NCBI GenBank assembly: GCA_020723805.1
Contig: DYID01000014.1
Span: 1,159-65,158, forward strand
Length of the DNA stretch: 64,000 nucleotides
Direction of reading: 5' to 3'
DNA from: Anaerolinea sp.
GTDB lineage: Bacteria; Chloroflexota; Anaerolineae; Anaerolineales; Villigracilaceae
This document shows positions 33,629 through 61,825 of the stretch, in pieces; position 1 is the first letter of the stretch, and each line of letters begins with the position of its first letter. Made by a program: the position numbers and the translations under genes. Under the pieces are notes generated by a model. That model ran no database searches. It was given only the letters and a program-made list of their open reading frames with translations, and was not told the DNA's origin.

Positions 33629-34261
33629 TCAACCAAACATCTCTTGCAATATTCCCCTTGCTTTCATCACCGCCCTGGCTCGATGGCTGAGGCGGTTTTT
33701 TTCATCCATGCTGAGTTCTGCCATGGTCTTGCCCAATTCGGGCAGGAGGAAGATGGGGTCGTAGCCGAATCCGCCCGTGCCGCGTTCTTCGGGGATGATC
33801 TCGCCTTCGCAAAAACCATGGGTAATTTGTAATTTGGAATCGGGTGTTGCGATGGCAATGGTGGCGTGGAAGCGGGCAGTCCATGGGCGGGGGAAGGCGG
33901 CGAGTTTGTTGAGCAGATATTTGCGCCGCTCTCCGTCTGAGAGTTTCCCCCCTCCGGCTCCCCCCAAATTCTGTGAATTTAGGGGGAGAGCACCGTAACG
34001 GGCGGAGTATAAGCCGGGCTCGCCGCCGAGCGCGTCCACTTCGAGACCGGAGTCGTCGGCGAGGGAGATGAGATTGCTCGCCTGTGCAAAGGCAATTGCT
34101 TTTTTGGCGGCGTTTTTGGCATAGGTGACGCCGTCTTCGACGACATCGAGGTCGAGTCCGATTTTGGCAGGCGTAACGAGTTCGATGCCCAGGTCGGCGA
34201 GGAGTTCTTGAAATTCGGCGAGTTTGCCGGGGTTGTTGGTGGCGATGAGGAGTTTACTCAT
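33629..34261 (-). CDS. rdgB: XTP/dITP diphosphatase (RdgB/HAM1)
   Basis: House-cleaning pyrophosphatase that removes ITP, dITP and XTP. The 210 residues begin at MSKLLIATNNPGKLAEF, include SLADDSGLEVDALGG, GFGYDPIFLLPE and the C-terminal KNRLSHRARA. The family normally has a short loop after YSARYG. Here an extra glycine-rich stretch (ALPLNSQNLGGAGGGKL) is encoded by a palindromic repeat. A second short insert (KLQITHG) reads an ATTACAAATTACC word. Upstream, an octamer repeat array precedes the ATG, and no strong ribosome site is seen. Confidence 0.93.
   Translation of the reverse strand: MSKLLIATNNPGKLAEFQELLADLGIELVTPAKIGLDLDVVEDGVTYAKNAAKKAIAFAQASNLISLADDSGLEVDALGGEPGLYSARYGALPLNSQNLGGAGGGKLSDGERRKYLLNKLAAFPRPWTARFHATIAIATPDSKLQITHGFCEGEIIPEERGTGGFGYDPIFLLPELGKTMAELSMDEKNRLSHRARAVMKARGILQEMFG
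33938..33992. repeat. Palindromic repeat inserted in frame within rdgB
   Basis: CCCCCCAAATTCTGTGAATTTAGGGGG-type inverted word flanked by CCCCTCCGGCTCC. It is translated as part of RdgB and lengthens the loop after YSARYG. Sequence character is that of intergenic repeats rather than of coding DNA. Confidence 0.6.
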
Positions 34262-34262
34262 G

Positions 34263-34294
34263 GTAGGTGGTAACTGGTAATTGGTGAATTGTCC
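34263..34294. repeat. GGTAAT octamer array upstream of rdgB
   Basis: Degenerate tandem words GGTAGGTG GTAACTG GTAATTG GTGAATTG immediately before the rdgB start on the - strand. Same family as the arrays in the acetyl-CoA pathway operon. Confidence 0.6.
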
Positions 34295-47072: not shown

Positions 47073-47142
47073 GTGTGGTAATTGGTAAATGGTAAATGGC
47101 GATTGCGAATTACCAATTACCAATTACCAATTACCAATTACT
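47073..47142. repeat. GGTAAT/ATTACC octamer array after metVF
   Basis: GGTAATTG GTAAATG GTAAATG words on the left, then four tandem ATTACCA octamers on the right. The two arms are complementary and can form a long hairpin. It starts a few bases after the stop of metVF on the - strand. Confidence 0.85.
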
Positions 47143-47147
47143 TCATA

Positions 47148-48635
47148 TCATGCAGGCACTTTCTCAAGATCAGGATGGTGAAAGTCCTTCGGCAAAACGC
47201 CTCCTTCCGTGACAATGCGCGGGACGATTTCCTCCCAGCCCACCGCCATGATGTGCAGTCCGTTCACGCCCTGACCTCGGAACTTTTTGATTTGCTCGAT
47301 GAGTTCGAGCGCAATCTGCACGCCCTCCTCCTGGGCGTTGCCGGCTTTGTCGGCGGCTTCCATGCGCTTCATCAGCGGTTCGGGGATGAAGACGCCCGGC
47401 ACCTCATCGTTCATGTACTTCGCCATCTTGAAGGTCTTGAGCGGCGTGATGCCGATGAGGATATAGACCTTGTCGAGGATGTTGCGCTTGGCGAGTTCGT
47501 TCAGCCAGATTTCCATGTGCGCCACGTCATAGACCAGATTGGTCTGGAAGAACTGCGCGCCCGCGTTGACCTTCTTATGCTCGCGCAGCGCCTGGAATTT
47601 CGGCTCGGAGGCGAACGGGGAAGCGGCAGCGCCGAGGAAGTAGCGCGGCGGCGTCTTGATTTCGCGCCCGTCCAGGTACCTGCCTTCGTCCCTCATGCGG
47701 CGGAGAATCCAAAGCATTTGAATCGAGTCAATGTCAATCACGTCCATGCGTCCGCGCGGAGGAGGCGCCATCTTCATCGAATCGCCGGAGATGCACAGGA
47801 TGTTGCGAATGCCCAAATCCGCCGCGCCCATCACTTCGGATTGCAAGCCGACGCGGGTGCGGTCGCGCGCCGCGATTTGCATGACGGGTTCCGCGCCGTG
47901 TTCAAGCGCCATCTTCGCGCACGCCCACGAGGCGGTGCGCGGCGTGGCGGAGGGATTGTCGGTGAAGTTGATCGCCGCGACGTAGGGCTTGAGGGTTTCG
48001 ATGTGCTGACACATCTTGTCGGTCTTGCACGAGACGGGCGGGGCGACCTCCGCTGTGACGACGAACTCGCCCGCTTTGAGCCGCCGTTCCAGTTCGGAGA
48101 CGGGCTCGGTATATTTCGGCGGGTGATACTGGTTGTCGCCCTGCCACCACTCGGGTTCGCGCAAGGGACGGAAGATTTCGTCCCACACCTTGTAGCGCAC
48201 TTCGGGCGGCTGGAACGCCAGCCCGCGAATCACCTTGCCCGTGCCAATTTCTTTGACGCGGTTCAAAATGCCGCTCCATTGCTCCGTGCCGACCTTGTCC
48301 CAATCCAGCGGCGGCAGGACTTCGAGCAGGTGTTCCTCGCGTCCGAGTTTGAACGAACGCTCGTAGATTTTGTACCAGATGCACGGGCGGGTTTCGTCCA
48401 CGTAGCAGTGTTCGCGGGTCGAGCCGCCGCATGGACCGTTACGCTCCCCCTTCGGACATTCCATCGGACAGATGAAGGCGGTCTCCTGCAGGAGGCAGTT
48501 GCCGCACATGCGGCATCCGAACAACGGACCTTTGATTGCCTTTTCGATTGCCGCCAGCACGCGTTTGTTGAACGGCTCGCGCTTGAAGGGCAGGTAGGGC
48601 GGCTGCCAGCGGCGTCCAGGGGTGAAGATGGGCAT
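47148..48635 (-). CDS. metF: Fused MetV-MetF methylenetetrahydrofolate reductase
   Basis: A 495-residue fusion. The N-terminal 190 or so residues are the MetV-type Fe-S/zinc domain (GCRMCGNCLLQETAFICPMECPKG, NGPCGGSTREHCYVDETRPCIW). The C-terminal 300 residues are the flavin-binding MetF barrel (VTAEVAPPVSC, NFTDNPSATPR, ILCISGD, FFQTNLVYD, IGITPLKTFKMAKYM). Together they reduce methylene-THF to methyl-THF in the Wood-Ljungdahl methyl branch. In acetogens these are usually two genes. Start MPIFTPG is preceded by AAGGAG, so the 16 earlier in-frame codons in the repeat were discarded. Confidence 0.93.
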   Translation of the reverse strand: MPIFTPGRRWQPPYLPFKREPFNKRVLAAIEKAIKGPLFGCRMCGNCLLQETAFICPMECPKGERNGPCGGSTREHCYVDETRPCIWYKIYERSFKLGREEHLLEVLPPLDWDKVGTEQWSGILNRVKEIGTGKVIRGLAFQPPEVRYKVWDEIFRPLREPEWWQGDNQYHPPKYTEPVSELERRLKAGEFVVTAEVAPPVSCKTDKMCQHIETLKPYVAAINFTDNPSATPRTASWACAKMALEHGAEPVMQIAARDRTRVGLQSEVMGAADLGIRNILCISGDSMKMAPPPRGRMDVIDIDSIQMLWILRRMRDEGRYLDGREIKTPPRYFLGAAASPFASEPKFQALREHKKVNAGAQFFQTNLVYDVAHMEIWLNELAKRNILDKVYILIGITPLKTFKMAKYMNDEVPGVFIPEPLMKRMEAADKAGNAQEEGVQIALELIEQIKKFRGQGVNGLHIMAVGWEEIVPRIVTEGGVLPKDFHHPDLEKVPA

Positions 48636-48650
48636 GGGGGCTCCTTCGGC

Positions 48651-48704
48651 GGAGATTGGTAAATGGTGATTGGTAATTACCAATTACTAAATTACTAATC
48701 TCCA
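48651..48704. repeat. GGTAAT/ATTACC array between acsE and metVF
   Basis: GGAGATTGGTAAATGGTGA and TTGGTAATTACCAATTACTA, an inverted pair. It begins within about five bases after the acsE stop (TAG) and continues toward the metVF ribosome site. Confidence 0.85.
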
Positions 48705-48708
48705 ACCG

Positions 48709-49632
48709 CTAATTCATCAGATACGAATCGGCATAAATCACTTTGTTCAGCAAAATCTGTGTCGTCTTCCAGATGGCAACCTGTTCGGGGTCGCTCATGT
48801 CGAAGTCTTCCATCTGCGGCTCTTCGCTGTTGGCGATGCGTTCGGCAATTTTGTTATAGACGCGCGCCAGCGGCGTGGAAGTGTCCTTCGTCTCGATCCA
48901 GCGGATGACCTCGTTCTGTTTCTGGTCGAAGGGATTGGCAATCATCATCTGCAAGCCGACGCCCATCAGCATGGCGCAATAGACGCGGTTGATGAGCGGA
49001 CGATTCTCGTTGGGGACGGCGTTGGAGACGTTGCTTAAGCCAACGGAAATGTTCGGGGGAGGGTCCCAGGCATATTGCAGAGTCCGAACCGCCTCGATGA
49101 GATGGGGGCAGTATTGCTGGCATCCCGAAACGGTCAGCACGAGCGGGTCAATGATGAGGTCCTTCATCGGGAAGTCAATCTCCAACATGCGCGGGATCAA
49201 TATCTCAACCGCGATATTGACGCGCGCGTCCGCTTCAACGGGGATGCCCTCGCTCTTCATCGTCAGCGCGATGAGTTTGGCGTTGTATTTCTTCGCCAGC
49301 AGCGGCACTTTCTCCAGCCGTTCGGGTTCGGCAGAGGTGGAGTTGAGAATCGGCTGAGCCTTGGTGATTTTCTTTAGCGCCGCTTCCATGCCGTCCACGT
49401 TGGTGGTGTCAATCGAGAGCGGCACATCCACCACCGCCTCCACCGTTTCGACGATCCACGGGAAGACCTCCGCCCAATCCTTCTTGCGCGGACCGAGATT
49501 GATGTCAATCGCCTTCGCCCCCGCCTCCACCTGCCGCACCGCCAAATCCATGAAGAACTCGCGGTCGCGGTTGGCGAGCGCCTCTTTTACTTTTTCAGAG
49601 ATGATGTGGATGTTTTCTCCGATGATATACAT
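48709..49632 (-). CDS. acsE: Methyltetrahydrofolate:corrinoid/Fe-S protein methyltransferase
   Basis: TIM-barrel pterin-binding enzyme of 307 residues that transfers the methyl group of methyl-THF to the AcsCD corrinoid protein. MYIIGENIHIISEKV opens the barrel; DINLGPRKKDW, VPLSIDTTN, PILNSTSAEPER, LIIDPLVLTVSGCQQ and SVGLSNVSNAVP are the pterin and corrinoid-facing strands. Start follows GGAGGT; the longer frame upstream lies in the octamer repeat. Flanked by its substrate producer metVF and by the RACo-type activator. Confidence 0.96.
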   Translation of the reverse strand: MYIIGENIHIISEKVKEALANRDREFFMDLAVRQVEAGAKAIDINLGPRKKDWAEVFPWIVETVEAVVDVPLSIDTTNVDGMEAALKKITKAQPILNSTSAEPERLEKVPLLAKKYNAKLIALTMKSEGIPVEADARVNIAVEILIPRMLEIDFPMKDLIIDPLVLTVSGCQQYCPHLIEAVRTLQYAWDPPPNISVGLSNVSNAVPNENRPLINRVYCAMLMGVGLQMMIANPFDQKQNEVIRWIETKDTSTPLARVYNKIAERIANSEEPQMEDFDMSDPEQVAIWKTTQILLNKVIYADSYLMN

Positions 49633-49654
49633 AACGACCTCCGTTTGTAAATAT

Positions 49655-49706
49655 CCTGTGTAATCGGTAATTGGTAATTTGGTAGTTACCAATTACGAAT
49701 TACTCT
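49655..49706. repeat. GGTAAT/ATTACC array between RACo and acsE
   Basis: TAATCGGTAATTGGTAATTTGG and its inverse CCAATTACGAATTACT. The last codons and TAA stop of the RACo gene (K-S-N-S-stop) are themselves written in the repeat. Confidence 0.85.
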
Positions 49707-51636
49707 TTTCCAGCGCCTCCGCCACACTTGGGAACTTATTCAAATCCGTGTGCGGCAAAAACAATGCGGACGTGAACGCTTCGTAGAAACTGTTGTCCGC
49801 CGAAAGTTCGATATACGTCATGCGCTTCGCAATCTCGCTGATGCGTTCGCGCTTGCGCCAATCGAGCAGAGCCAGGTACGCACCCTTCACCGACGTGTTG
49901 CCGAGAAACTCGAAACGCGACCATTCCATGTCGGGCAGGAGCCCAATCTGCACCGCCTTCTCGACGTTGATGTATTTTCCGAACGACCCGCCGACCAAAA
50001 CCTTGTCCACGCTTTCGAGCGGGATGCCGACGTTTTCCGCCAGCACCGTGAATCCCGCGTAGATGGCGGCTTTGGCGCGCAGGAGGTTGTCAATGTCCAC
50101 GCGCGTCAGGACGATGTCCTCGCCCGACTCGGTTTCTTTTCCCCACGCGACGACGTACTCTCCGCCGTGCGCTCCTTCGCGGACCCTCGGACTGGGCGCG
50201 TCCAATTTGACGTTGCCTCCCTTGTCAATGACTCCCGTGAGGAACGCCTCCGAGAGCAGCGCGATGAGACCCGATCCACAAATGCCCTTCGGTTTGCCTC
50301 CGCCGATGACGCGGTAGGTCGGTTCGAGCGTGTCGCTGTTGATCCACACCTCTTCGATGGCGCCAGTGGTTGCCCTCATGCCGTTGACCACGCCCGCGCC
50401 CTCGAAGGCAGGACCCGCCGAGCAGGCGCACGTCACCAGCCAATCGCGATTGCCCAACACGGTTTCGCCGTTTGTTCCGACATCGAGGAACAGCGTCACA
50501 TTTTCCGCGCTGTCGAGACCCGACGACAACACGCCCGCTGTAATGTCTGCGCCAACGTAGGAGGCAACTCCAGGCAGGCAGTCCACCGCCGCTTCGGGGT
50601 TGACGTTCAAGCCGACCTCGCGTCCCGTCAGCGCAGGCGGATGGTTGACCGCAGGGATGAACGGAGAGAGGCGGATGCTCGCCGCGGGAATGCCAAGGAA
50701 CAGGTGCATCATCGTCGTATTGCCCGCGATGGTCGCTTTGACGATTTGGTCGGGGGTCACTTTGCCCTGCGGCAGTTTGACGCGCTTGCACGCCCTCTCC
50801 AGCAGTTCGTTGATGGTATCCAGCACGCGCTGACGGAGTTCGTCCGCGCCGCCGTTTTTGCTGGCGTAGATGATGCGGGAAATCACGTCCTCGCCGCGTG
50901 CAATTTGTCCGTTATATTCTGCAACTTGTGCTTTGACCTGACCCGTCACCAAATCCACCAGCCAGAGCGTGACGGTCGTGGTGCCGATGTCAATCGCCGC
51001 GCCCCAGAGAGGGGAGTATTCGTCTTCGTGACCGGGGCGCAAGTCTATCAGTCGGATAGTCTGATGGTCTGATGGTCGGGAGATTTCGACGATGGCGGTG
51101 ACGTTCCAGTCGCCCGCTCGAAGCGTGGAGCCGATTGTTCGGAGCAGGGGCAGGGAACAGGTCACGGTTTCGAAGCGGCGCTGGAGGCGAAATGCGGTTT
51201 GCAGGCGCGCCCAGTCGTCGGTTTGGTCGTCCATGCTGGGCGGTGTCAAAGTCAAATGAACGCGGCGAACCGTCTGCGAGAACGGATATTCGTAATCTTC
51301 TGGAACCGTGACTTCGGCGACGACGCGGTCGGTGGTGAGGCGGCGTTCGATCTTCTCCTGCGGCGGGACGTAAATCGCCGCGTCGCCCTCGACGACGGTC
51401 TGACACGCCAACGCATAGCCTTGAGCCACATCCGCTTCCGAGAGGCGCAGCGTACTGCGGCGGCGGACTTGTCCCTCCGTCACCTGCACGGCGCAGCGAC
51501 CGCAGCGTCCCTGCCCGCCGCACGGCTGACCGATGTCAATCCCCGCCAAGCGCGCGGCATCTGCCAGCAGGGTGTTCGTGGGAACGGTGACGCTGGCTTG
51601 CTTCTCGTCGTGGGTGAAGGTGAGGGAGTGATTCAT
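49693..51636 (-). CDS. acsV: Corrinoid activation protein (RACo type, ferredoxin plus ASKHA domain)
   Basis: 647 residues. An N-terminal [2Fe-2S] ferredoxin domain (PCGGQGRCGRCAV, later ACQT) is followed by a middle domain and a large ASKHA-fold ATPase (GAAIDIGTTTVTLWLVD, ATIAGNTTMMHL, FLDVGTNGETVLGN, CSAGPAFEGAG, GICGSGLIALLSE, VGGSFGKYIN). It uses ATP to reduce Co(II) corrinoid back to the Co(I) state in AcsCD. Residues of about 185-197 (SRPSDHQTIRLID) are encoded by a repeat also found at 61772, suggesting an inserted peptide just before the ASKHA domain. The symbol acsV is used by analogy with acetogens. Confidence 0.93.
   Translation of the reverse strand: MNHSLTFTHDEKQASVTVPTNTLLADAARLAGIDIGQPCGGQGRCGRCAVQVTEGQVRRRSTLRLSEADVAQGYALACQTVVEGDAAIYVPPQEKIERRLTTDRVVAEVTVPEDYEYPFSQTVRRVHLTLTPPSMDDQTDDWARLQTAFRLQRRFETVTCSLPLLRTIGSTLRAGDWNVTAIVEISRPSDHQTIRLIDLRPGHEDEYSPLWGAAIDIGTTTVTLWLVDLVTGQVKAQVAEYNGQIARGEDVISRIIYASKNGGADELRQRVLDTINELLERACKRVKLPQGKVTPDQIVKATIAGNTTMMHLFLGIPAASIRLSPFIPAVNHPPALTGREVGLNVNPEAAVDCLPGVASYVGADITAGVLSSGLDSAENVTLFLDVGTNGETVLGNRDWLVTCACSAGPAFEGAGVVNGMRATTGAIEEVWINSDTLEPTYRVIGGGKPKGICGSGLIALLSEAFLTGVIDKGGNVKLDAPSPRVREGAHGGEYVVAWGKETESGEDIVLTRVDIDNLLRAKAAIYAGFTVLAENVGIPLESVDKVLVGGSFGKYINVEKAVQIGLLPDMEWSRFEFLGNTSVKGAYLALLDWRKRERISEIAKRMTYIELSADNSFYEAFTSALFLPHTDLNKFPSVAEALEKSNS
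51046..51085. repeat. GACTATCAGACCATC repeat in frame within the RACo gene
   Basis: AGTCTATCAGTCGGATAGTCTGATGGTCTGATGGTCGGG-type stretch in tandem 10-mers. Its reverse complement is almost the same as the intergenic array at 61772-61825, so this looks like an intergenic repeat captured in frame. Confidence 0.75.
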
Positions 51637-51640
51637 GAGT

Positions 51641-51716
51641 GATCGGTAATTGGTAAATGGTGATTGGTAAATGGTAATTGCCACTTACCAATTACTATTT
51701 ACTATTTACCAAATTA
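51641..51716. repeat. GGTAAT/ATTACC array between acsC and RACo
   Basis: TAATTGGTAAATGGTGATTGGTAAATGGTAATTG and the inverse arm CTTACCAATTACTATTTACTATTTACC. The acsC stop codon (AAT TAA) falls at the edge of the array. Confidence 0.85.
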
Positions 51717-53033
51717 ATTGAGCGCCTGTTTCATAAACGCCGGCAGATCCACCGCCTCACGCGGACCGACGCGCACCTCCCAGCCTGGGAGTTCCTCTTC
51801 CACTTCGCCCGAAAGCACGGCGACATGCCCAGGCAGGACGAGCCGCTTTTTGCTGACTTTGTCCGCAACGTTGAAGCCTTTGATGGCTTTGGCGATTCGT
51901 TCCGCGTCGAATTTGCCCGCCGCCCACGCCGTCAGCACCGACATGCCCTCCGCGTCGGTGACGACCAGCCAGGCGGGCAAGCCGCTTCCTTCCACTTCGT
52001 TGGCGACGGCAAAGTAGGTGATGCTGAAGTTGGTGGTGACCAGCACGGGGCTTTCGGGTTTTGGCGAGTTGATTTCGTACACGCCAGGCTGAACCTGAAT
52101 CGGCTTTTGCGGGTCGGTGTAGAGGTTCTCGCGCAGGACGAGCAGGGGATAGATCATCTCCGGCGCGAAGGTGTCAATGACGACGAAGCCTGCATATTTC
52201 GCAATCGCCTGCGCGGCATAGACCGCCTCCTTCTCGACCCCGTTCTGCGCGGCGAAGAAGATGACGGGATACCCCAGCGGACGGAAGTTCTTGAGCGCCA
52301 GCCTGCGGACTTGCGTGGAGCGCATCAGCCAGTCGCCGAGGTTCTTTCCGCCGAGGTCGAGGACCATGTCTTCCACGCCCTTCGTTTGAATCTTTTGCGT
52401 CAGGTCGGCGAGCGCGTCGAGCGTGTCGGCTTTGACGGCGAGGACGGCTTTGTGTTTCTTCGCCACCTCCGCCAGGGATTCGTAGTTGGATTCGCTTGCG
52501 GCGTAGATCAAGGCTGTTTCCCCAGCGAGCAGGCTGAGGCTTGAGTCCAGAGCCGCCGCGTCGTTCGAGATGAGGATGAGCGGACGCTTCGTCACTTCCC
52601 GCACGGTTTTGACAGCCGCCGTCAAGTCACCATCCGCTTCGATGGCGTAGCCGTTGAGGCTGAAGTCCATGCCAACGTAGTTGACCTTGTAGGCGTCGGC
52701 TTGCGTGACCTTTTTGGCGAGGTCGGGGTCGCTGGCTTTGACGCGCAGGAACAGACCAGGCTTGTTGTAGAAGGTCTTTTCGTGGCGGTACATCACGACT
52801 TCGTTGCCGACCTTGACTTCGTTGCCGTCCGCTTTCAGGGTGACGAGGCGAATCGGCGGCGCGGCGGATTCGGCGAGCTGCTTTTTCGATTCTTCGCTGA
52901 CATACGGACACGCGCCGAGTTCGACCTGCTTGGCGGCGAGTTTCATTGCAAAGGCAAGGCAGGTGGGAAAGCCGCACTCTTTACAGTTGGTTTGAGGGAG
53001 GAGTTTGTAGATTTGGATGCCGCTGAGAGCCAT
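51714..53033 (-). CDS. acsC: Corrinoid/iron-sulfur protein large subunit
   Basis: 439 residues. An N-terminal [4Fe-4S] domain has the motif NCKECGFPTCLAFAMKLA with the final Cys in LGACPY. A TIM barrel follows (PLILISNDAAALDSS, LVLDLGGKNLGDWL, FVVIDTFAPEMIYPLL) and a C-terminal B12-binding Rossmann-like domain (SPVLVTTNFSITYFAVANEVEGS). With AcsD it carries the methyl group from AcsE to AcsB. AAGGAG precedes the ATG. Confidence 0.97.
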   Translation of the reverse strand: MALSGIQIYKLLPQTNCKECGFPTCLAFAMKLAAKQVELGACPYVSEESKKQLAESAAPPIRLVTLKADGNEVKVGNEVVMYRHEKTFYNKPGLFLRVKASDPDLAKKVTQADAYKVNYVGMDFSLNGYAIEADGDLTAAVKTVREVTKRPLILISNDAAALDSSLSLLAGETALIYAASESNYESLAEVAKKHKAVLAVKADTLDALADLTQKIQTKGVEDMVLDLGGKNLGDWLMRSTQVRRLALKNFRPLGYPVIFFAAQNGVEKEAVYAAQAIAKYAGFVVIDTFAPEMIYPLLVLRENLYTDPQKPIQVQPGVYEINSPKPESPVLVTTNFSITYFAVANEVEGSGLPAWLVVTDAEGMSVLTAWAAGKFDAERIAKAIKGFNVADKVSKKRLVLPGHVAVLSGEVEEELPGWEVRVGPREAVDLPAFMKQALN

Positions 53034-53040
53034 GTTGTCT

Positions 53041-53110
53041 CCTTTGTAAACGGTAGAGAATTTTGCCTTTCGTTTTACGCGGCAACATGAATGTTGCGAT
53101 ACTGCCTTTC
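53041..53110. repeat. Degenerate twin-palindrome element upstream of acsC
   Basis: GTTTTACGCGGCAACATGAATGTTGCGATACTGCC contains the palindrome GCAACATGAATGTTGC; AACGGTAGAG at the left suggests a decayed relative of the MITE-like elements. Confidence 0.5.
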
Positions 53111-53132
53111 ACTTAACCTCTTGCGTGAAGAG

Positions 53133-53161
53133 TCAATTACCAATCACTAATTACCAATCAC
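53133..53161. repeat. ATTACCAATC array after acsD
   Basis: CAATTACCAATCACTAATTACCAATCACGCA; the acsD stop (TGA) lies inside it. Single-armed compared with the other arrays of the operon. Confidence 0.8.
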
Positions 53162-54102
53162 GCAACCACCAATTCGCCAATCGCATCCTTGACTCGCTTC
53201 ACCGACTCAGGATGCCTCAACACCACAATATCCGCGCCCGATTCGACCAGCGCCAGCGCGGTGAGCGTCTCCCAATGAATCGCGCGGGCTTTCCAATCGC
53301 CCCACGCTTCGGGGATGCCTTCGCCGACCTTCGCCTCTTTCGTCTTCCACGCTTCGAAGCCGGGCGTGACGATCATCGGGAATTGAGTCATTGCGTCGCC
53401 TTGCAGCGCGGCGAGACGCAGGCGTTCCATCACCGAGTAGCCGTATTCCATGCCGTAGCCGAGCGCGCCCGTGGTCGGGTCCATGAGGATGCGGTCTTTG
53501 GGCATGCCCATGTCGCTGATGAGGATGTTCAACTGTTTCGAGAGGTTCACATCCATCGGCGCGCGCGCCTGCACGAGATGTCCGTTCGCCATCGCCGTCG
53601 CAACGATGGTGCGGTAGTTTTTGTCTTCGCAGATTCCCAGCACAAGCCGCTCGCCCTTCGCCGCCTCGGCAACTGCCACAAGCAGTTCGTTGTCCTTCTC
53701 CGCCTGCCCAGGACCCCAGACGATGAGCGGGAGTCCCGTTGCGCCCAATACGGATTTGACCGCTTTCACTGCATCTTCGGGACTATCTTCGACGGTCAAT
53801 GCCAGGACGAGAAGGTCTGCTCCCGCTTCTTCAGCCTTTTTCGCCCATTGAGCGGGATCTGCCATCGCCGCGCCCCAGACCTCTGCCAGCAGCGGCGACC
53901 AGTCTTCGGGCTTGCGCGACTTGATTTCAATGGCGATGGCGGGTTTGTTTGGGGTCGGCGCTTCGAAGTGCAGATAAGGCATCGTCGTCCCGCCGCCGAC
54001 GGTGACGGTTTTGGCGCGCGTGCCTCCTTCCGCGCTGGTCGCGCCGATGGTCACGGTGCGGATGCTTCCGGGCCATTTGTCTTTAGGGATTTCGATGGGC
54101 AT
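53158..54102 (-). CDS. acsD: Corrinoid/iron-sulfur protein small subunit
   Basis: 314 residues, a TIM-barrel partner of AcsC (CdhD/AcsD family). Visible segments: VTIGATSAEGGTRAKTVTVGGG start, AEEAGADLLVLALTVED, LPLIVWGPGQAEKDNELL, NLSKQLNILISDMGMPKDRILMDPTTGALGYGMEY and a final ETLTALALVESGADIVVLRHPES. All regular family blocks are present. Start MPIEIPKDKW; the 18 in-frame codons upstream are repeat-derived (tacac words). Confidence 0.97.
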   Translation of the reverse strand: MPIEIPKDKWPGSIRTVTIGATSAEGGTRAKTVTVGGGTTMPYLHFEAPTPNKPAIAIEIKSRKPEDWSPLLAEVWGAAMADPAQWAKKAEEAGADLLVLALTVEDSPEDAVKAVKSVLGATGLPLIVWGPGQAEKDNELLVAVAEAAKGERLVLGICEDKNYRTIVATAMANGHLVQARAPMDVNLSKQLNILISDMGMPKDRILMDPTTGALGYGMEYGYSVMERLRLAALQGDAMTQFPMIVTPGFEAWKTKEAKVGEGIPEAWGDWKARAIHWETLTALALVESGADIVVLRHPESVKRVKDAIGELVVA

Positions 54103-54114
54103 GTGTGCCTCCAG

Positions 54115-54229
54115 TGGGGTATACAAGTACACAGGTAGAAAAGTACACAAGTACACAGGTACACAAGGAAACAGGTTACGGTTACATGTCTACATGCGTA
54201 CCTGTCTACGTGTTTACGTTATCTACAGC
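54115..54229. repeat. AAGTACACAGGTAC array between the CBS gene and acsD
   Basis: Tandem degenerate words AAGTACACAGGTA, AAAGTACACAAGTACACAGGTACACAAGG, then the inverted form GTCTACATGCGTACCTGTCTACGTGTTTACG. It replaces the ATTACC array at this junction but has the same two-armed design. Confidence 0.75.
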
Positions 54230-54720
54230 AATCCTGCCTTCCTCCTTGCTTCATCTCGCCTCTCGATAAACTGCTCCAGCGGCGACTTGCGTTCCGCCGC
54301 GAGACCCAAATCTTTCAAATCCTTTTCATCCCTCGCCGCGATGTGACGCAGGATGTGACGATACGAAATGTACGCGGCAGGGTAGATGATGCCCGCCGAG
54401 TTGTGCATCATGTATGCAATGCGGATGCCCCTGTCCTTCATCATCTGCGCCGCGGCGGTGAGCGGGAGGTCGGGATTCAATTCTGGCACGCCTTCGCTCA
54501 TGATGTCTTCGGCTGTGAGCGTGTCGAGTTCCTCTCTGCCATACGCCGCGACCAATTCCTGTTCACCCACCACGCCGATGCTGTGACCCTCCGCATCCAG
54601 CACGCACATCGCCTCGACGTGATGCTCCAGCAGAAAGCGCGCGATGTCGCGGATGGGCGAGTTCCATTTGCAGGTCGGCACGCCGACGGTCATCAGGTCA
54701 CGGACGAGAAGCGGTTTCAT
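54223..54720 (-). CDS. CBS-domain protein
   Basis: 165 residues with a tandem CBS pair: residues 1-65 (LVRDLMTVGVPTCKWNSPI, VLDAEGHSIGVVGEQEL) and 75-130 (TAEDIMSEGVPELNPDLPLTAAAQMM, RIAYMMHNSAG). A C-terminal helix is charged (EQFIERRDEARRKAGLL). CBS pairs bind adenine nucleotides, so it may sense energy charge for CODH/ACS. It is located between acsB and acsD. The start at MKPLLVRDLM is preferred; the longer frame runs through a repeat-like stretch. Confidence 0.88.
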   Translation of the reverse strand: MKPLLVRDLMTVGVPTCKWNSPIRDIARFLLEHHVEAMCVLDAEGHSIGVVGEQELVAAYGREELDTLTAEDIMSEGVPELNPDLPLTAAAQMMKDRGIRIAYMMHNSAGIIYPAAYISYRHILRHIAARDEKDLKDLGLAAERKSPLEQFIERRDEARRKAGLL

Positions 54721-54858
54721 ATTGTTTCTCGCGGGGATAAATCCCCTGCTCAGTTCATGGAAGCCCCGGCGGGGCTCGGCACACCACTCCGAAGGGCTTT
54801 CGTGTGCTGAGGCGGGATTTTCGCGAAGCATCCTCAAAGAGGGCAACCCCTGCCGAAC
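54721..54858. other. Intercistronic hairpin-rich spacer
   Basis: Contains GGGGATAAATCCCC, GCCCCGGCGGGGC, GCACACCACTCCGAAGGGCTTTCGTGTGC and similar short palindromes. The frame of the CBS gene stays open through it, but it has neither a ribosome site nor protein-like sequence. Confidence 0.45.
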
Positions 54859-54860
54859 TT

Positions 54861-54889
54861 CAATTACCAATTACCAATTACCAATTCAC
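54861..54889. repeat. ATTACC array after acsB
   Basis: CAATTACCAATTACCAATTACC tandem octamers that start two bases from the TAG stop of acsB on the - strand. Confidence 0.85.
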
Positions 54890-57184
54890 CTAGAACATCG
54901 GCTCCATCGCCATGGCGGGATGATTGTGCGCCTCCAGCCAGGCGAGCAGTTCTTCGACGGTTGTCACACTGCGCTCATCGGCGATCTTGTCGAGCAGGTC
55001 GGGGTCGCCTTCGCGCTCGCAGACCTTTTGGAATTCCTCTTTCATGGTTTCTTTCAGCACCGATGACATCCACACCACGCGCTTGAAGCCGCCGTCGGCG
55101 GAGATGAACTTGGGGCTGATGAGGTAATACTTGCCCACGCCCATCACGCCCGGGGTTTGCAGACCGCCGCCTGCGATGCCCGCCAGAGTCGAGAAGGTCA
55201 TGCCTGCGGGGGTCATGGAGGTATCCTCGCGCGAGACGACCATCACGCCGTTTGCCTCAGGGATGAGCATGACGATGCACTCGAAACATCCGCAGGCGGT
55301 CATGGGGTTTTCCATGATGGAGTACATCGAGACTTCCTGCACCACGCCGTGCGAGCCGATCTTGGCGTAATCGTTCGTCCCCTGCCAGTAGCCTTTCTTG
55401 GGGTCGAGCAGTTTCCCAAGTTTGATGGGCTGATTGGGTCCCGTCGGGTTGATGTTGTAGGAGGCTTTGCAGTCCAGCCAGTTGTACGCGCCGCACAAGC
55501 CCAGCCGTTCGGGAGAGACCACGCAGACGTGATTCGGTGCGAACGACTGACAAAGTGTGCAGGAGTAGAACTCCTCCACCTTGTCGTCGGTAAGGTCGGC
55601 GAGGCGTTTGTTGCGGAAGTCGTAGGCGGCGCGCGCCTTCTCCAGCCATTCGGCGTGGAGCGCGGGGTCGGTGATGATGGTCACTTCCACTTTGTCCACG
55701 ATCGCGCCGAAGTCCTCGTGGAAGCGGGCGTGCAGTATCTTGCCGAAGTGTTCGAGGGTGAAGCCTTTGTCTGCCGCGGCGTTCGAGATGCGGATCCAGG
55801 CGATGTCGCGCTGACCGACGTGCTGAATCCCGCTCGCGCCGTTGACGAAGTAATGCACCTGCCGCTCCAGCACTGGCTCGAAGTCCTGCTGCATTTGCCG
55901 CCCCGCCACTTTGATGACGATGCCCAAGTCCATGTGACCCTGCGGCGGGACGTTGGAGAAATCGGGTCCGATGACTTCGATCTTGCCGTCGGTCACTTCG
56001 TCCAGCGGCGTCATGTAGAGATACTCGAAGGCGCGGCTGTACTTGCCGCCGAACTCCACGCGCAAATCCGCCTTGCGGACGACCTCGCCCTCGAAGGCGG
56101 AGCCATACGGGACGGGCACGTCCACATGCGAGACCTTGACCTTGACGCCGCGCACTTCGATACATTTCTGAACGAGACGCTCGGCGCGCTCCAGATCGTC
56201 CTTGCCTTCGATTTGATTGAACGGCATCGAGACGACATGCTCGTAGGTGGTCACGCCTGTCGGCAAAATTTCGGGGATGACCGTATCTGCGATGACGGGG
56301 AAGCCGAAGTTGATGGCGCCCGCGGCGGCGGCATATTTCAAATCGTCCACTTCGCCCAACGCCAGCACGAAGGCGAAGACGCGATCTTTGTTGTAGAGCA
56401 GGATTTCGCGCGACTGTCCAGGCTTGAGCCCGCCGAAGGTCAGGGCGGAGCGGGTGGCGAATCCCAGCGCGTAAATTGCAGAGATGGTGTCCGTGCCGAA
56501 CGGGACGGTGTAGGTGTCGTAGCCGAGTTCCACGCCCTCTTCGATGAGTTGATGGATGATGCTCCGCCCGTTGACGTTGCCTGAGAGGAAGGTCAGAATA
56601 TTGCGGCGTTGTAACTCACGCACAATCTTGACGGCGACCTCGTTCGACTTGGCGCAGCCCACAATCGCGGCAAAGCCGGGCATGCGACCGTCCACGAGTT
56701 GAATGCCCCATGAACGGAGTTGAATATCGTCAATGGGTCCATTCAGATGCCCGTCTGTTCCGCCTTCCCCTTCTTTGTTGTTTGCGTCAGGACTTGTAAA
56801 GGATGTGCCGCCCGCGAGTTTGAAGCCGGGCATGGGCTCAGGCTGAAGTCCGTAAACGAAGCGGATTGCCTCAATCGCCTCGGCGGCGAGAAGCGTTGCC
56901 ATGCCGGAATCGAGAGTCTCGCCGAGGTAGGGAGTCCATTTCGAGAAGGCGGGAATCGGATGGAGCAAGTCGCGTGCGTACTTCAACACAGGCTGAAGGT
57001 CGCCGAGTTTTTCGACCGCCTTGCCCGTCATGCCGAGGATGGTGGGGAGGTAGTAAGCCGTGTTCGGGAACGCGACGGGCGTATCTGCGCCTTTTTCCTT
57101 CAACGCCTTGTTGAGCATGATTTCGGCTTCGGTCACCAGCGCGTTCGCGCCGCGCGTGGCTCGGGTGGCAATGTATTTTGACAT
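54890..57184 (-). CDS. acsB: Acetyl-CoA synthase catalytic subunit (CO-methylating)
   Basis: 764 residues, bacterial-type AcsB with the N-terminal CODH-binding domain (residues 1 to about 310) that archaeal CdhC lacks. Ligands of the A-cluster are complete: Cys542, 545, 554 and 564 (YSCTLCQSFAPNHVC, LGLCGAYN) for the [4Fe-4S] part and the Cys631-Gly-Cys633 motif (ACGCFECI) for the distal nickel. The spacing of 89 residues between the first Cys and the CGC motif equals that in the Moorella enzyme. It joins CO, methyl and CoA to acetyl-CoA. Ribosome site GGAGA. Confidence 0.98.
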   Translation of the reverse strand: MSKYIATRATRGANALVTEAEIMLNKALKEKGADTPVAFPNTAYYLPTILGMTGKAVEKLGDLQPVLKYARDLLHPIPAFSKWTPYLGETLDSGMATLLAAEAIEAIRFVYGLQPEPMPGFKLAGGTSFTSPDANNKEGEGGTDGHLNGPIDDIQLRSWGIQLVDGRMPGFAAIVGCAKSNEVAVKIVRELQRRNILTFLSGNVNGRSIIHQLIEEGVELGYDTYTVPFGTDTISAIYALGFATRSALTFGGLKPGQSREILLYNKDRVFAFVLALGEVDDLKYAAAAGAINFGFPVIADTVIPEILPTGVTTYEHVVSMPFNQIEGKDDLERAERLVQKCIEVRGVKVKVSHVDVPVPYGSAFEGEVVRKADLRVEFGGKYSRAFEYLYMTPLDEVTDGKIEVIGPDFSNVPPQGHMDLGIVIKVAGRQMQQDFEPVLERQVHYFVNGASGIQHVGQRDIAWIRISNAAADKGFTLEHFGKILHARFHEDFGAIVDKVEVTIITDPALHAEWLEKARAAYDFRNKRLADLTDDKVEEFYSCTLCQSFAPNHVCVVSPERLGLCGAYNWLDCKASYNINPTGPNQPIKLGKLLDPKKGYWQGTNDYAKIGSHGVVQEVSMYSIMENPMTACGCFECIVMLIPEANGVMVVSREDTSMTPAGMTFSTLAGIAGGGLQTPGVMGVGKYYLISPKFISADGGFKRVVWMSSVLKETMKEEFQKVCEREGDPDLLDKIADERSVTTVEELLAWLEAHNHPAMAMEPMF

Positions 57185-57198
57185 AAGTTCTCCTCGCG

Positions 57199-57241
57199 GT
57201 TGGTAATTAGTAATTGGTAATTACCATTTACCAATTACCAC
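57199..57241. repeat. GGTAAT/ATTACC array between cooS and acsB
   Basis: TTGGTAATTAGTAATTGGTAA and the inverse TTACCATTTACCAATTACCA. It starts one base after the cooS TGA stop on the - strand and ends upstream of the acsB ribosome site. Confidence 0.85.
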
Positions 57242-59248
57242 TCATCCGTAAATGGCTTCGCGCTTCTTTTCCAGCGGCAGCGCCTCCAACTCACGCATTC
57301 GCCAATCGCCGCTGCGCCCGAACTTGTTCGGCTCCCACGCGGGCAGACCGAGCGCGGCGCGCTTCTTGTCAATGTGCGCGAGCGTGGCTTCGATCATCTT
57401 TTGCGGGTCGGGGATGAATTCGAGTTTGCCGCCGTAGAGTTTTTCCCAACCCTCGCTGATGAATTTCAGCACCAGGTCGCTGTCGCTGACTCTATCGGGC
57501 ATGCCGCTCACGGGCGATGCGCCGCCAAAGATGACGTACGCGCCCGAAGCGACGCAATACGTGGCAATCGCCAGCGCCTTTTCGCTCATCCATTCGGGCG
57601 CGAGACCGACGGCGGGGATTTGGTCAATGTCGTCGCCCAAGCCGCCCTCTTCGACCATCTGCGTCAGCACGGTCAGGATGCGGGTATTGTCCACGCACGA
57701 ACCCATGTGGAGGACGGGCGGGATGCCGACCGTTTCGCAGACTTCGCGGAGTCCGCTTCCGACCTCGGTCAAGCCTGCTTCGCCCAAAAGGAGCCCCAAC
57801 TTCCCCGCGGCAATCGCGCCGCACCCCGTCTGGACGACGAGTACGTCGTTCTTGAGCAGTTCCTTCACGACGGTGTTGTGCAGGTAATCCTGCGACGAGC
57901 GCGGATTGTTGCATCCCACAATCGCCGCCACGCCGCGGATGCGTCCCGCCATGATGGCGTCGTTCAACGGGCGGAATGACGCGCGGTACGAACCGCCGAG
58001 CATGTAGTTGATGTACTCGTGCGAGAAGCCGGGGATGACATCTTCCTTGATTTGCGGAATGTGCATCTTCGAGCGGTCGCGGTTCTTGAAGTTGTCAATC
58101 GCCGTCTTCAAAATTTGCTTGGCGATGGTCAATGCCTTGTGTTCGTCGAATTCGATGTGCGTCGCCCCCGTGATTTTGACCTTCGGCGAGGTGGTGATGA
58201 TCTTGGTGTGGAAGTTCTGCGCCAGTCCCACCAGCGCCTGCATGATGCACTGCACGTCCACTACCATCGCCTCGACCGCGCCGGTGAGTATCGCAAGTTC
58301 CTGATGCAGGAAGTTCCCCGCCGCAGGGATGCCCTGTCGCATGAGAATTTCATTTGCCGTACAGCAGATGCCCGAAAGGTTGACGCCGTTCGCCCCCGCC
58401 GCTTTGGCGTACTCGATGATTTCAGGCGTCTGCGACGCGGCGACAATCATCTCGCTCAGGCTCGGCTCGTGTCCATGCACGACGACGTTGACCATGTCTT
58501 CTTTAATCACGCCCAAATTCGCCTGTCCCAAAATCGGCGCGGGCGTGCCGAAAAGGATGTCCGAGATGTCGGTGGCAATCATCGAGCCGCCCCAGCCGTC
58601 CGCCAGCGCCGTGCGGATGGCGTGATTCAGGATATGCGCGGGGTCCTGGTCATCGCCGATATGTGTGCGATGCAGGCATTCCACTACCTCGCGGTCAATG
58701 CCGCGAGGCCAGACCTTTTGCTCGCGCCACAACTGCTGGCGTTTCTTCGGCGCGCGCGTCGCAGGGACGATCTCGCCTGTCTGCTGACCGAACTGCGAAA
58801 TGTACAGGTCGGCTAAATCGTTGGCGATTTCTTCGGGGGCGCGACCTTCAATCTTGATTCCATACTTCGAAGCCACAATCCGTAGTTTGGCAACGTCGCG
58901 GATGCTGTATCCCTCCGCCTCGCCTTTGGCGGTTGCCTTGAGCAGGAACGCCATGTCGCGCCCGTGATCGGAGTGCGCCGCCGCGCCCGCCGCGATGGAG
59001 CGCGTCAGGTTGCGCGCCTGGATGGTATCCAGCGTTGCGCCGCACACGCCTGTCTCGCCGCTCTTGGTCAGGCGGCACGGACCCATCCCGCACTGCTTAC
59101 AGCACATCCCCGCGCCGCCGATGTTGCACGGGACCATCGCGTCGGCGCGCGTAAACGCCGTGCCAATGCCGAGTTCCTCCGCGCGGAGGAGCATCTCCTG
59201 CGCGGCAGGGTCGGTCGAGTACTCCTTGATGTCACGTTTCTTGGGCAT
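57242..59248 (-). CDS. cooS: Anaerobic carbon monoxide dehydrogenase catalytic subunit
   Basis: 668 residues, Ni-Fe-S CODH (CooS/AcsA). The N-terminal D- and B-cluster cysteines are CNIGGAGMCCKQCGMGPCRL and GVCGA. C-cluster ligands all have counterparts: His in VVHGHEPSLSE, Cys in GICCTANE, VDVQC, VGCNNPR, TGCGA and GSCVDN (Cys518), and the catalytic Lys in MSEKALA. It reduces CO2 to CO for AcsB or oxidises CO. GAGGTG precedes the ATG. Second gene of the operon, after the HMA-like gene, and divergent from its maturation genes cooC. Confidence 0.98.
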   Translation of the reverse strand: MPKKRDIKEYSTDPAAQEMLLRAEELGIGTAFTRADAMVPCNIGGAGMCCKQCGMGPCRLTKSGETGVCGATLDTIQARNLTRSIAAGAAAHSDHGRDMAFLLKATAKGEAEGYSIRDVAKLRIVASKYGIKIEGRAPEEIANDLADLYISQFGQQTGEIVPATRAPKKRQQLWREQKVWPRGIDREVVECLHRTHIGDDQDPAHILNHAIRTALADGWGGSMIATDISDILFGTPAPILGQANLGVIKEDMVNVVVHGHEPSLSEMIVAASQTPEIIEYAKAAGANGVNLSGICCTANEILMRQGIPAAGNFLHQELAILTGAVEAMVVDVQCIMQALVGLAQNFHTKIITTSPKVKITGATHIEFDEHKALTIAKQILKTAIDNFKNRDRSKMHIPQIKEDVIPGFSHEYINYMLGGSYRASFRPLNDAIMAGRIRGVAAIVGCNNPRSSQDYLHNTVVKELLKNDVLVVQTGCGAIAAGKLGLLLGEAGLTEVGSGLREVCETVGIPPVLHMGSCVDNTRILTVLTQMVEEGGLGDDIDQIPAVGLAPEWMSEKALAIATYCVASGAYVIFGGASPVSGMPDRVSDSDLVLKFISEGWEKLYGGKLEFIPDPQKMIEATLAHIDKKRAALGLPAWEPNKFGRSGDWRMRELEALPLEKKREAIYG

Positions 59249-61771: not shown

Positions 61772-61825
61772 TCCGACCCTCCGACTATCAGACTATCAGA
61801 CTATCCGACTACCAGACTAAAGACT
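61772..61825. repeat. GACTATCAGACTATCCGACT array between the two cooC genes
   Basis: Five or six tandem degenerate 10-mers (CCGACTATCA GACTATCAGA CTATCCGACT). The same word is found in frame inside the RACo gene. The frame upstream of the second cooC is open through it, translating as SDYQTIRLSDYQT. Confidence 0.8.

Follow-up and report, generated by a model that had tools for sequence, protein, structure and literature searches.

Dispersed heptamer arrays in the CODH/ACS operon of an Anaerolinea genome, and a possible conserved hairpin before the corrinoid activator gene

Heptamer arrays at the operon junctions

We analysed a 64,000-nucleotide stretch (the window) of the genome of Anaerolinea sp. 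(Chloroflexota, Anaerolineales, Villigracilaceae; GenBank assembly GCA_020723805.1, contig DYID01000014.1, positions 1,159 to 65,158). Profile matches of the called genes identify on its minus strand an operon for carbon monoxide dehydrogenase/acetyl-CoA synthase (CODH/ACS; Table 1), and tandem arrays of a short word, GGTAATT or its complement AATTACC, follow seven of its genes. These arrays are real and far beyond chance, and they are not special to the CODH/ACS operon. We consider it probable (about 0.65) that they are dispersed words of the kind described in cyanobacteria as short tandemly repeated repetitive (STRR) sequences, filtered by translation, and that most of those in the operon are passengers; the hairpin before the corrinoid activator gene RACo seems to be selected.

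All seven arrays named in a preliminary description of this DNA, behind cooS, acsB, acsD, acsC, RACo, acsE and metVF, are present. Near-exact 14-mer matches (two mismatches at most) number 205 in the window; ten first-order Markov simulations of it gave 0-4. The unit had been taken for an octamer; its period in Tandem Repeats Finder is 7 bases (GGTAATT/AATTACC). Hereafter W denotes GGTAATT and w AATTACC, each read in gene sense. Five of the seven arrays have two arms, as had been said of most, and those of acsB and acsD are single arms of W. The arrays do lie close to stop codons, but the detected distance to the upstream stop ranges from -12 to +16, not from 0 to 15. The stop falls inside the repeat in acsD and RACo, as described, and also in cooS, but not in acsC, where the array begins 1 nt past the stop. 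The description of a repeat in each junction had left out the CBS-acsD junction, which holds another word, the octamer GTACACAA (54103-54225, fold z -2.48); by eye, the same octamer occurs at the CBS-acsD junction of three relatives (G007, G022 and G023 in our numbering).

Compared with shuffled sequences, four of the five two-armed GGTAATT junctions fold far better, with z between -5.05 and -7.64; RACo-acsE (z -1.19) and the single-arm array of acsD (z -0.32) do not, and that of acsB (z -2.71) is intermediate. Inspected by eye for the features of intrinsic terminators (a GC-rich stem and a T run), the window arrays show AT-rich stems and no T run in gene sense. The array announced before rdgB exists but is weak, and a still weaker match lies within the Ham1/RdgB gene at 33818.

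Table 1. Genes of the CODH/ACS operon and repeat arrays in the window
Feature	Positions	Strand	Profile match or remark
cooS, CO dehydrogenase catalytic subunit	57242..59248	-	TIGR01702
acsB	54890..57184	-	NF040764
CBS-domain gene	54223..54720	-	PF00571
acsD, delta subunit	53158..54102	-	
acsC, gamma subunit	51714..53033	-	
RACo/AcsV-type corrinoid activator	49693..51636	-	PF14574, PF17651, PF17650, PF00111
acsE-type methyltransferase	48709..49632	-	PF00809
metVF, methylenetetrahydrofolate reductase (MTHFR) + DUF5981 gene	47148..48635	-	
Two-armed GGTAATT array, cooS-acsB junction	57199..57244	-	overlaps cooS stop; RNA fold z -5.27
Single-arm array (W), directly after acsB stop	54859..54889	-	fold z -2.71
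Octamer GTACACAA array, CBS-acsD junction	54119..54176	-	second word family; two-armed when taken to 54225
Single-arm array (W) overlapping acsD stop	53133..53162	-	fold z -0.32
Two-armed array, acsC-RACo junction	51639..51712	-	fills the junction up to 2 nt before RACo ATG; z -7.64
Two-armed array over RACo stop, RACo-acsE junction	49659..49704	-	z -1.19
Two-armed array, acsE-metVF junction	48654..48692	-	z -5.05
Two-armed array 3' of the MTHFR gene (metVF)	47074..47143	-	z -7.01
Weak array 5 nt before the called Ham1/RdgB start	34267..34289	-	

The operon junctions of relatives hold other material. Among 16 relatives, these junctions are either short or occupied by other words; read by eye, these include GTCTGATA-like and GTACACAG octamers, the heptamers AAGGTCG, AAGGTTG and GTTGACA, and GTCATTGCGAG repeats resembling repetitive extragenic palindromic (REP) sequences. 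Among 100 orthologous junctions, the window's included, 21 are at most 45 nt long and 17 hold other genes or join non-adjacent genes; 39 of the remaining 62 (46-420 nt) fold with z below -2. In 27 two-armed arrays the arms are no better matched to their own partner than to other arrays (permutation p 0.39 and 0.96). Arm-to-arm covariation, sought in these 27 as proof of selected stems, did not appear. Because sister junctions are short or hold other words and the arm variants are unmatched, the intercistronic RNA function proposed earlier is unsupported as a general property of the operon; the junction before RACo, which keeps a hairpin within the family, fits the associated idea of setting subunit ratios.

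The operon also varies in gene content and spacing. The acsB-CBS gap measures 172 nt in the window (54720-54890) and 650-1316 nt in five relatives, several of which by eye have an extra small gene there, and the gene for a GNAT acetyltransferase, found after metVF in the window, is placed between RACo and acsE in G005 and G025.

Placement relative to genes and reading frames

The exact 14-mer occurs 155 times in the genome of the window and 0 to 55 times in each of 17 sisters of the genus (55 in G014, 29 in G009). A 16-mer is present in 13 of 301 genomes of the phylum, with the highest count (102) in the genome studied here. At least 119 stretches with three tandem GGTAATT units (a 21-mer) are listed, by title 98 cyanobacterial, 13 from Chloroflexota and 8 others. 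As the word is shared with cyanobacteria, we regard it as a repeat of the STRR kind. Arrays were sampled in 34 stretches around 100 of the 155 exact sites together with the window (457,720 bases), with arms scored by mismatch thresholds; genes in this 458-kb sample were called by a home-made script that rewards Shine-Dalgarno (SD) motifs, so that called starts are approximate. The arrays are clustered: for 42 of 68 another array lies within 5 kb, whereas 2000 randomisations gave a mean of 19.9 and a maximum of 36. They are 18-83 nt long (median 32, 45 length classes), without fixed ends or a flank consensus (at most 0.12 bit).

The sample comprises 110 arrays: 70 in co-directional gaps, 38 inside genes, one in a convergent gap, none in divergent gaps and one at an edge. 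Array-free gaps of at least 20 nt in the same genome number 169 co-directional, 27 convergent and 27 divergent. Another genome, G011, has 30 arrays (13 co-directional, 3 convergent, none divergent, 14 inside genes). The 98 cyanobacterial loci, chosen by the 21-mer and scored with a stricter array threshold, have 121 (68 co-directional, 12 convergent, 14 divergent, 10 in genes, 17 at edges). Divergent junctions are avoided in our genome and G011 (0 of 82 vs 51 of 346, p 1e-5), an avoidance that fails in cyanobacteria (14 of 92 divergent) and does not extend to every other word of our genome, other words being present in divergent gaps. Placement in co-directional gaps only was rejected as a general law, not being repeated in G011 or cyanobacteria.

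A stop codon is overlapped by 34 of the 70 co-directional arrays, where placing each array at random in its own gap would give 15.7; leaving out the operon and rdgB arrays of the window gives 31 of 62 (13.9 expected). Start codons are overlapped by 9 (15.7 expected), without excess. TAA makes up 30 of 48 stops at arrays and 127 of 359 other stops. In cyanobacteria, 15 of 68 arrays overlap a stop (7.4 expected) and 28 are near a start (17 expected). The earlier description envisaged a link to stop codons or to this operon: the stop link is found in the sampled genome, and the arrays are dispersed, with no operon specialty. Its suggestion that stop codons are targeted holds as far as the overlap goes; since arrays also lie within genes and against start codons, stops are not the sole target.

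The composition of the word bears directly on this pattern. Tandem W contains TAA and TTG in every unit and tandem w contains no start or stop codon in any frame; arrays would abut stops because the word has TAA in one strand. Array-borne gene ends are visible at cooS. In all nine relatives with a short cooS-acsB junction the protein ends in YG plus 3-5 residues (LAAD, MAAD, VAAD, TAAD and so on), and in the window and G007, both with arrays at this place, it ends at YG, with no tail. In G001, where the array consists of another word, it ends in YGVVG, and among four others with longer gaps the tail is kept in G032, G041 and G043 and missing in G056. The RACo tails of G001 and G007 appear by eye to be array-encoded. 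The link to stops thus looks like a consequence, for which the TAA of the word and the replacement of terminal codons suffice.

The strand of the word follows its position in the gap. For single arms in the co-directional gaps of our genome and G011, W and w number 24 and 10 on the stop side and 1 and 21 on the start side; the cyanobacterial figures are 22 and 7, and 1 and 35. Other 7- and 8-base words within 60 nt of a start have the C-rich strand in gene sense in 24 of 25 cases in our genome, 11 of 15 in G011 and 45 of 45 in cyanobacteria, and repeat-free start sides lean only mildly (G exceeds C in 28 of 78 for our genome and 39 of 114 for cyanobacteria). On the cyanobacterial stop side, 103 of 131 arrays are G-rich, compared with 64 of 114 repeat-free sides. 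In 138 words, a start codon occurs in the C-rich strand of 11 and the G-rich strand of 79, and a stop codon in 33 and 80. Start codons were rejected as the sole cause of the start-side rule, as words whose G-rich strand carries no start codon and no SD-like motif still have the C-rich strand in sense in 11 of 11 cases, a small number.

Inside genes the arrays are read almost exclusively on the stop-free strand: 35 of the 38 in our genome have w only, two have W and one has both, and the stop-free strand is read in 11 of 14 arrays of G011, 8 of 10 of cyanobacteria and 7 of 7 of other Chloroflexota. Most encode NYQLPIT-like peptides; no paper on such a repeat-encoded peptide turned up in a literature search whose coverage left out most subscription journals. 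Eight host proteins were scanned, and hosts include glycyl-tRNA synthetase, a tRNA-U5 methyltransferase-family protein, a photolyase and methionine synthase (MetH), which has five arrays. In an alignment of MetH from 20 relatives and the window, with counts made by eye among the rows listed, these five occupy stretches where relatives have other repeats or nothing. At the first site a repeat insert, built from many different words, is seen in 13 of the 21 rows (the window among them), another 7 rows are short there and G020 is ambiguous; at the fifth, the closest relative found for the gene (G014, 92%) has another repeat. The stretches that accept inserts are probably surface loops. MetH of G007 and three other relatives (G024, G021 and G017) has long in-frame inserts of GGGAGAGGG-type repeats near residue 680-695.

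The acsC-RACo junction

The acsD-acsC and acsC-RACo junctions were read in 59 other genomes of the order, out of 77 with a match. Between acsC and RACo, z is below -2 in 27 genomes; of the others, 14 have a gap of more than 40 nt with no such fold, 13 have a short gap, 4 have intervening genes and in 1 the junction is missing. Between acsD and acsC, 19 fold with z below -2, 12 are longer without a hairpin and 28 are short. Within the family of the window, a hairpin precedes RACo in 15 of 16 other genomes and in the window itself (z -8.1 in this comparison; 16 of 17 readable genomes), compared with 9 of 17 at acsD-acsC. The exception is G144, with a gap of 14 nt; G502 is borderline (z -2.1), and the gap of G007 includes the acsC tail, where the acsC alignment broke. 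Five compact members (G025, G023, G027, G020 and G493) have acsD-acsC gaps of 9-13 nt, yet they carry the hairpin before RACo. The hairpin sequences are mostly different: G128 has the word of the window, and the pairs G005/G502 and G007/G498 share others. In other families the hairpin is present in 8 of 9 genomes (f8), 3 of 5 (f5), 1 of 15 (f14) and none of 7 (f9), and 7 of the 9 genomes of f8 also have acsD-acsC hairpins. As a background, 40 of 187 co-directional gaps up to 420 nt in G025, G020 and G023 contain hairpins, which gives the 15 of 16 a p of 1e-9 if the genomes are taken as independent, as they are not fully.

RACo is also distinguished by its start. With starts placed by aligning the proteins, and SD motifs taken from a set list of four- and five-letter sequences, an SD sequence precedes RACo in only 2 of 47 relatives (absent in 45) and precedes acsC in 57 of 59, acsD in 41 of 42, acsB in 12 of 12, acsE in 13 of 13 and metVF in 8 of 8; genes outside the stretch or with unplaced starts were omitted (12 for RACo, 17 for acsD, 47 for acsB, 46 for acsE, 51 for metVF). 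Among these six genes in the window, all but RACo have an SD sequence. Unlike the hairpin, the absence of an SD sequence before RACo extends across the order.

RACo reactivates the corrinoid protein, and small amounts of it should suffice. An SD-less start behind a hairpin would fit a low RACo output, and a function in setting that output at this one junction is plausible from the sequence comparison. Tentatively, we suggest that selection may maintain the structure of the acsC-RACo hairpin even as unrelated repeat words repeatedly replace one another in it, the SD-less RACo being kept scarce. At this junction structure is apparently retained and sequence exchanged, and sequence-based searches for conserved regulatory RNAs would overlook such a hairpin. 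The SD-less RACo is also relevant to the control of CODH/ACS subunit ratios, and if the suggestion is true, a conserved regulatory hairpin would be built from mobile or self-made repeat words that can stand in for one another.

Origin of the arrays and comparison with known repeats

In the reading we favour, 7- and 8-base words would arise or land throughout the genome, vary in length and be replaced by others within the genus; the turnover itself rests on comparison, and we infer the mutational engine behind the words. Selection would keep arrays only where translation tolerates them: in proteins, as the stop-free strand in variable stretches; in operons, in the gaps that separate a stop codon from the following gene's ribosome site; and near start codons, with the C-rich strand, mostly without start codons, in gene sense. 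An overrunning array would replace the last codons and bring its own stop. Most arrays at CODH/ACS junctions would be passengers, and at acsC-RACo the hairpin would be kept as a structure made from whichever word is available; together with the conserved absence of an SD sequence it would hold RACo below the enzyme subunits. General tolerance explains most of the arrays. It suggests a single placement rule, based on which start and stop codons each strand contains and testable in any genome, and the puzzle of the cyanobacterial STRRs is extended to a second phylum, in which both proteins and operon gaps take up these words.

Several observations weigh against this reading. There is no stop excess in G011 (1 of 13, 1.5 expected), and stop-side arrays of our genome are G-rich in 36 of 60 cases, not above the repeat-free 41 of 76. 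GGTAATT in divergent cyanobacterial gaps breaks the start-side rule (3 G-rich to 4 C-rich), and arrays more than 60 nt from any gene show no strand rule. The near-exclusive use of co-directional gaps in our genome (65 of 66 array junctions) exceeds what simple tolerance would give, and neither G011, where 3 of 16 are convergent, nor cyanobacteria, where 26 of 92 are not tandem, show the same exclusivity. Neither an insertion mechanism nor a target duplication was found, duplication not being resolvable at the available divergence. As to RACo, many gaps of more than 40 nt have a hairpin in any case (40 of 87), so the excess of 15 of 15 over longer gaps only is far smaller, and the junction was picked after eight had been inspected.

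That the words are purely mutational satellites, produced in place by replication slippage and local template switching with no mobile agent, is a possibility we hold somewhat doubtful. The 7-base period, variable copy number, unit variants and local clustering all speak for it, but the word is abundant in this genome (155 exact 14-mers) and ranges from 0 to 55 in 17 sisters, and such a contrast disfavours slippage in place because it needs a copying step between sites. A telomerase-like reverse transcriptase (RT) was considered as a maker of the words and rejected, as the array-bearing G014 and G009 have no RT match. Our genome has one, with an array 5' of the RT gene, after the stop of the neighbouring gene; this RT gene (locus L281, 1049-2451) sits at the end of a contig, preceded by a small pair of genes and the GGTAATT array.

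It is unlikely that all junction hairpins are selected as functional intercistronic elements for processing or stability, setting subunit ratios. The strong folds of four of the five two-armed window junctions and of 39 of the 62 operon gaps would agree with such a role, and a precedent exists in Anabaena, where transcript stability has been linked to a stem-loop close to the processing site of nifH1 (PMC4284476). Against it stand the 21 of 100 orthologous junctions of 45 nt or less, the unmatched arms, the two single-arm arrays and the one two-armed junction folding at chance level in the window, and the third of the sampled arrays that lie inside genes. Still less credit is due to a hairpin element resembling REPs or miniature inverted-repeat transposable elements and moved in trans by a Y1 (IS200-like) transposase. 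The genome has seven Y1_Tnp matches, of which two are separated from an array by about 1.2 kb and a single called gene, two-armed arrays are palindromic, and the avoidance of divergent junctions in our genome and G011 recalls REPs, described as lying mostly between unidirectional or convergent genes (PMC3733652). However, many arrays are single-armed, fixed ends and a flank consensus are lacking, the four Y1 loci read of the seven contain no array, and the same word occupies divergent gaps in cyanobacteria (14 of 92). A mobile repeat whose enzyme recognises stop codons, or makes the array at gene 3' ends, seems very improbable: the stop overlap and the enrichment of TAA would be explained, but not the 38 of 110 arrays inside genes, the stronger start proximity in cyanobacteria, the missing stop excess of G011, the featureless flanks or the 45 length classes.

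Of known systems, the STRRs of filamentous cyanobacteria, described as usually 7-base units between genes, hairpin-capable and of unknown function (PMC2670836), are the ones to which we assign the arrays. Shared features are tandem 7-base units; many dispersed copies that are mainly intergenic (here 71 of 110 at junctions, 38 in genes and 1 at an edge); the same 21-mer, with 98 of the at least 119 listed stretches cyanobacterial by title, the window itself not being so; hairpin potential (z -5.05 or below in four of the seven window arrays); and the C-rich strand in gene sense near starts in both phyla. They differ in that the present host belongs to the Chloroflexota. The in-gene share, 38 of 110 here and 10 of 121 in the cyanobacterial loci, is not strictly comparable, as the choice of loci and the thresholds differ. 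Within the same phylum, Chloroflexus aurantiacus has heptamer satellites likewise scattered in the genome, of another word, (GATAGRA)n (PMC6749651).

REPs and the mosaic elements built from them (BIMEs) are likewise short hairpin repeats, mostly between unidirectional or convergent genes and some in genes, and different REPs are reported at about the same recB position in two Xanthomonas species (PMC3733652). The REPs of this transposase-associated (REP/BIME-RAYT) system are, however, palindromes of defined form that carry a GTAG or CGTC tag, unlike the 7-base period without a defined end seen here. Rickettsia palindromic elements also lie in frame in protein genes, as do the 38 in-gene arrays (35 stop-free, and those of the MetH alignment), but are described as about 150 bp long and encoding a conserved peptide (PMC10969869), compared with 18-83 nt and no fixed ends. 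Replacement of words with retention of structure has a parallel in the P6b stem of the Nostoc trnL intron, formed by seven-base words whose classes were repeatedly replaced at similar structure (PMC4476775); that is a single intron stem, not a set of operon junctions.

The TAACTGA heptamers of Beggiatoaceae, according to MacGregor 2015 (PMC4679880), form about 170 sets, mostly intergenic, and also occur in cyanobacteria. Their stop logic depends on orientation, some overlapping upstream stops and 10 sets inside open reading frames being in reverse orientation. Intergenic heptamers, stop overlap and copies inside genes are common to both systems. The Beggiatoaceae sets are described there as direct repeats, with one inverted set, mostly forward and close before a start; the present arrays, in contrast, are often two-armed and lie on stop sides and in gene interiors. 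A rotated TAACTGA word also forms an array in our genome (locus L097, 44-73), and a further word family of this genome is represented in the window by an array of the octamer GACTATCA at 61783-61819.

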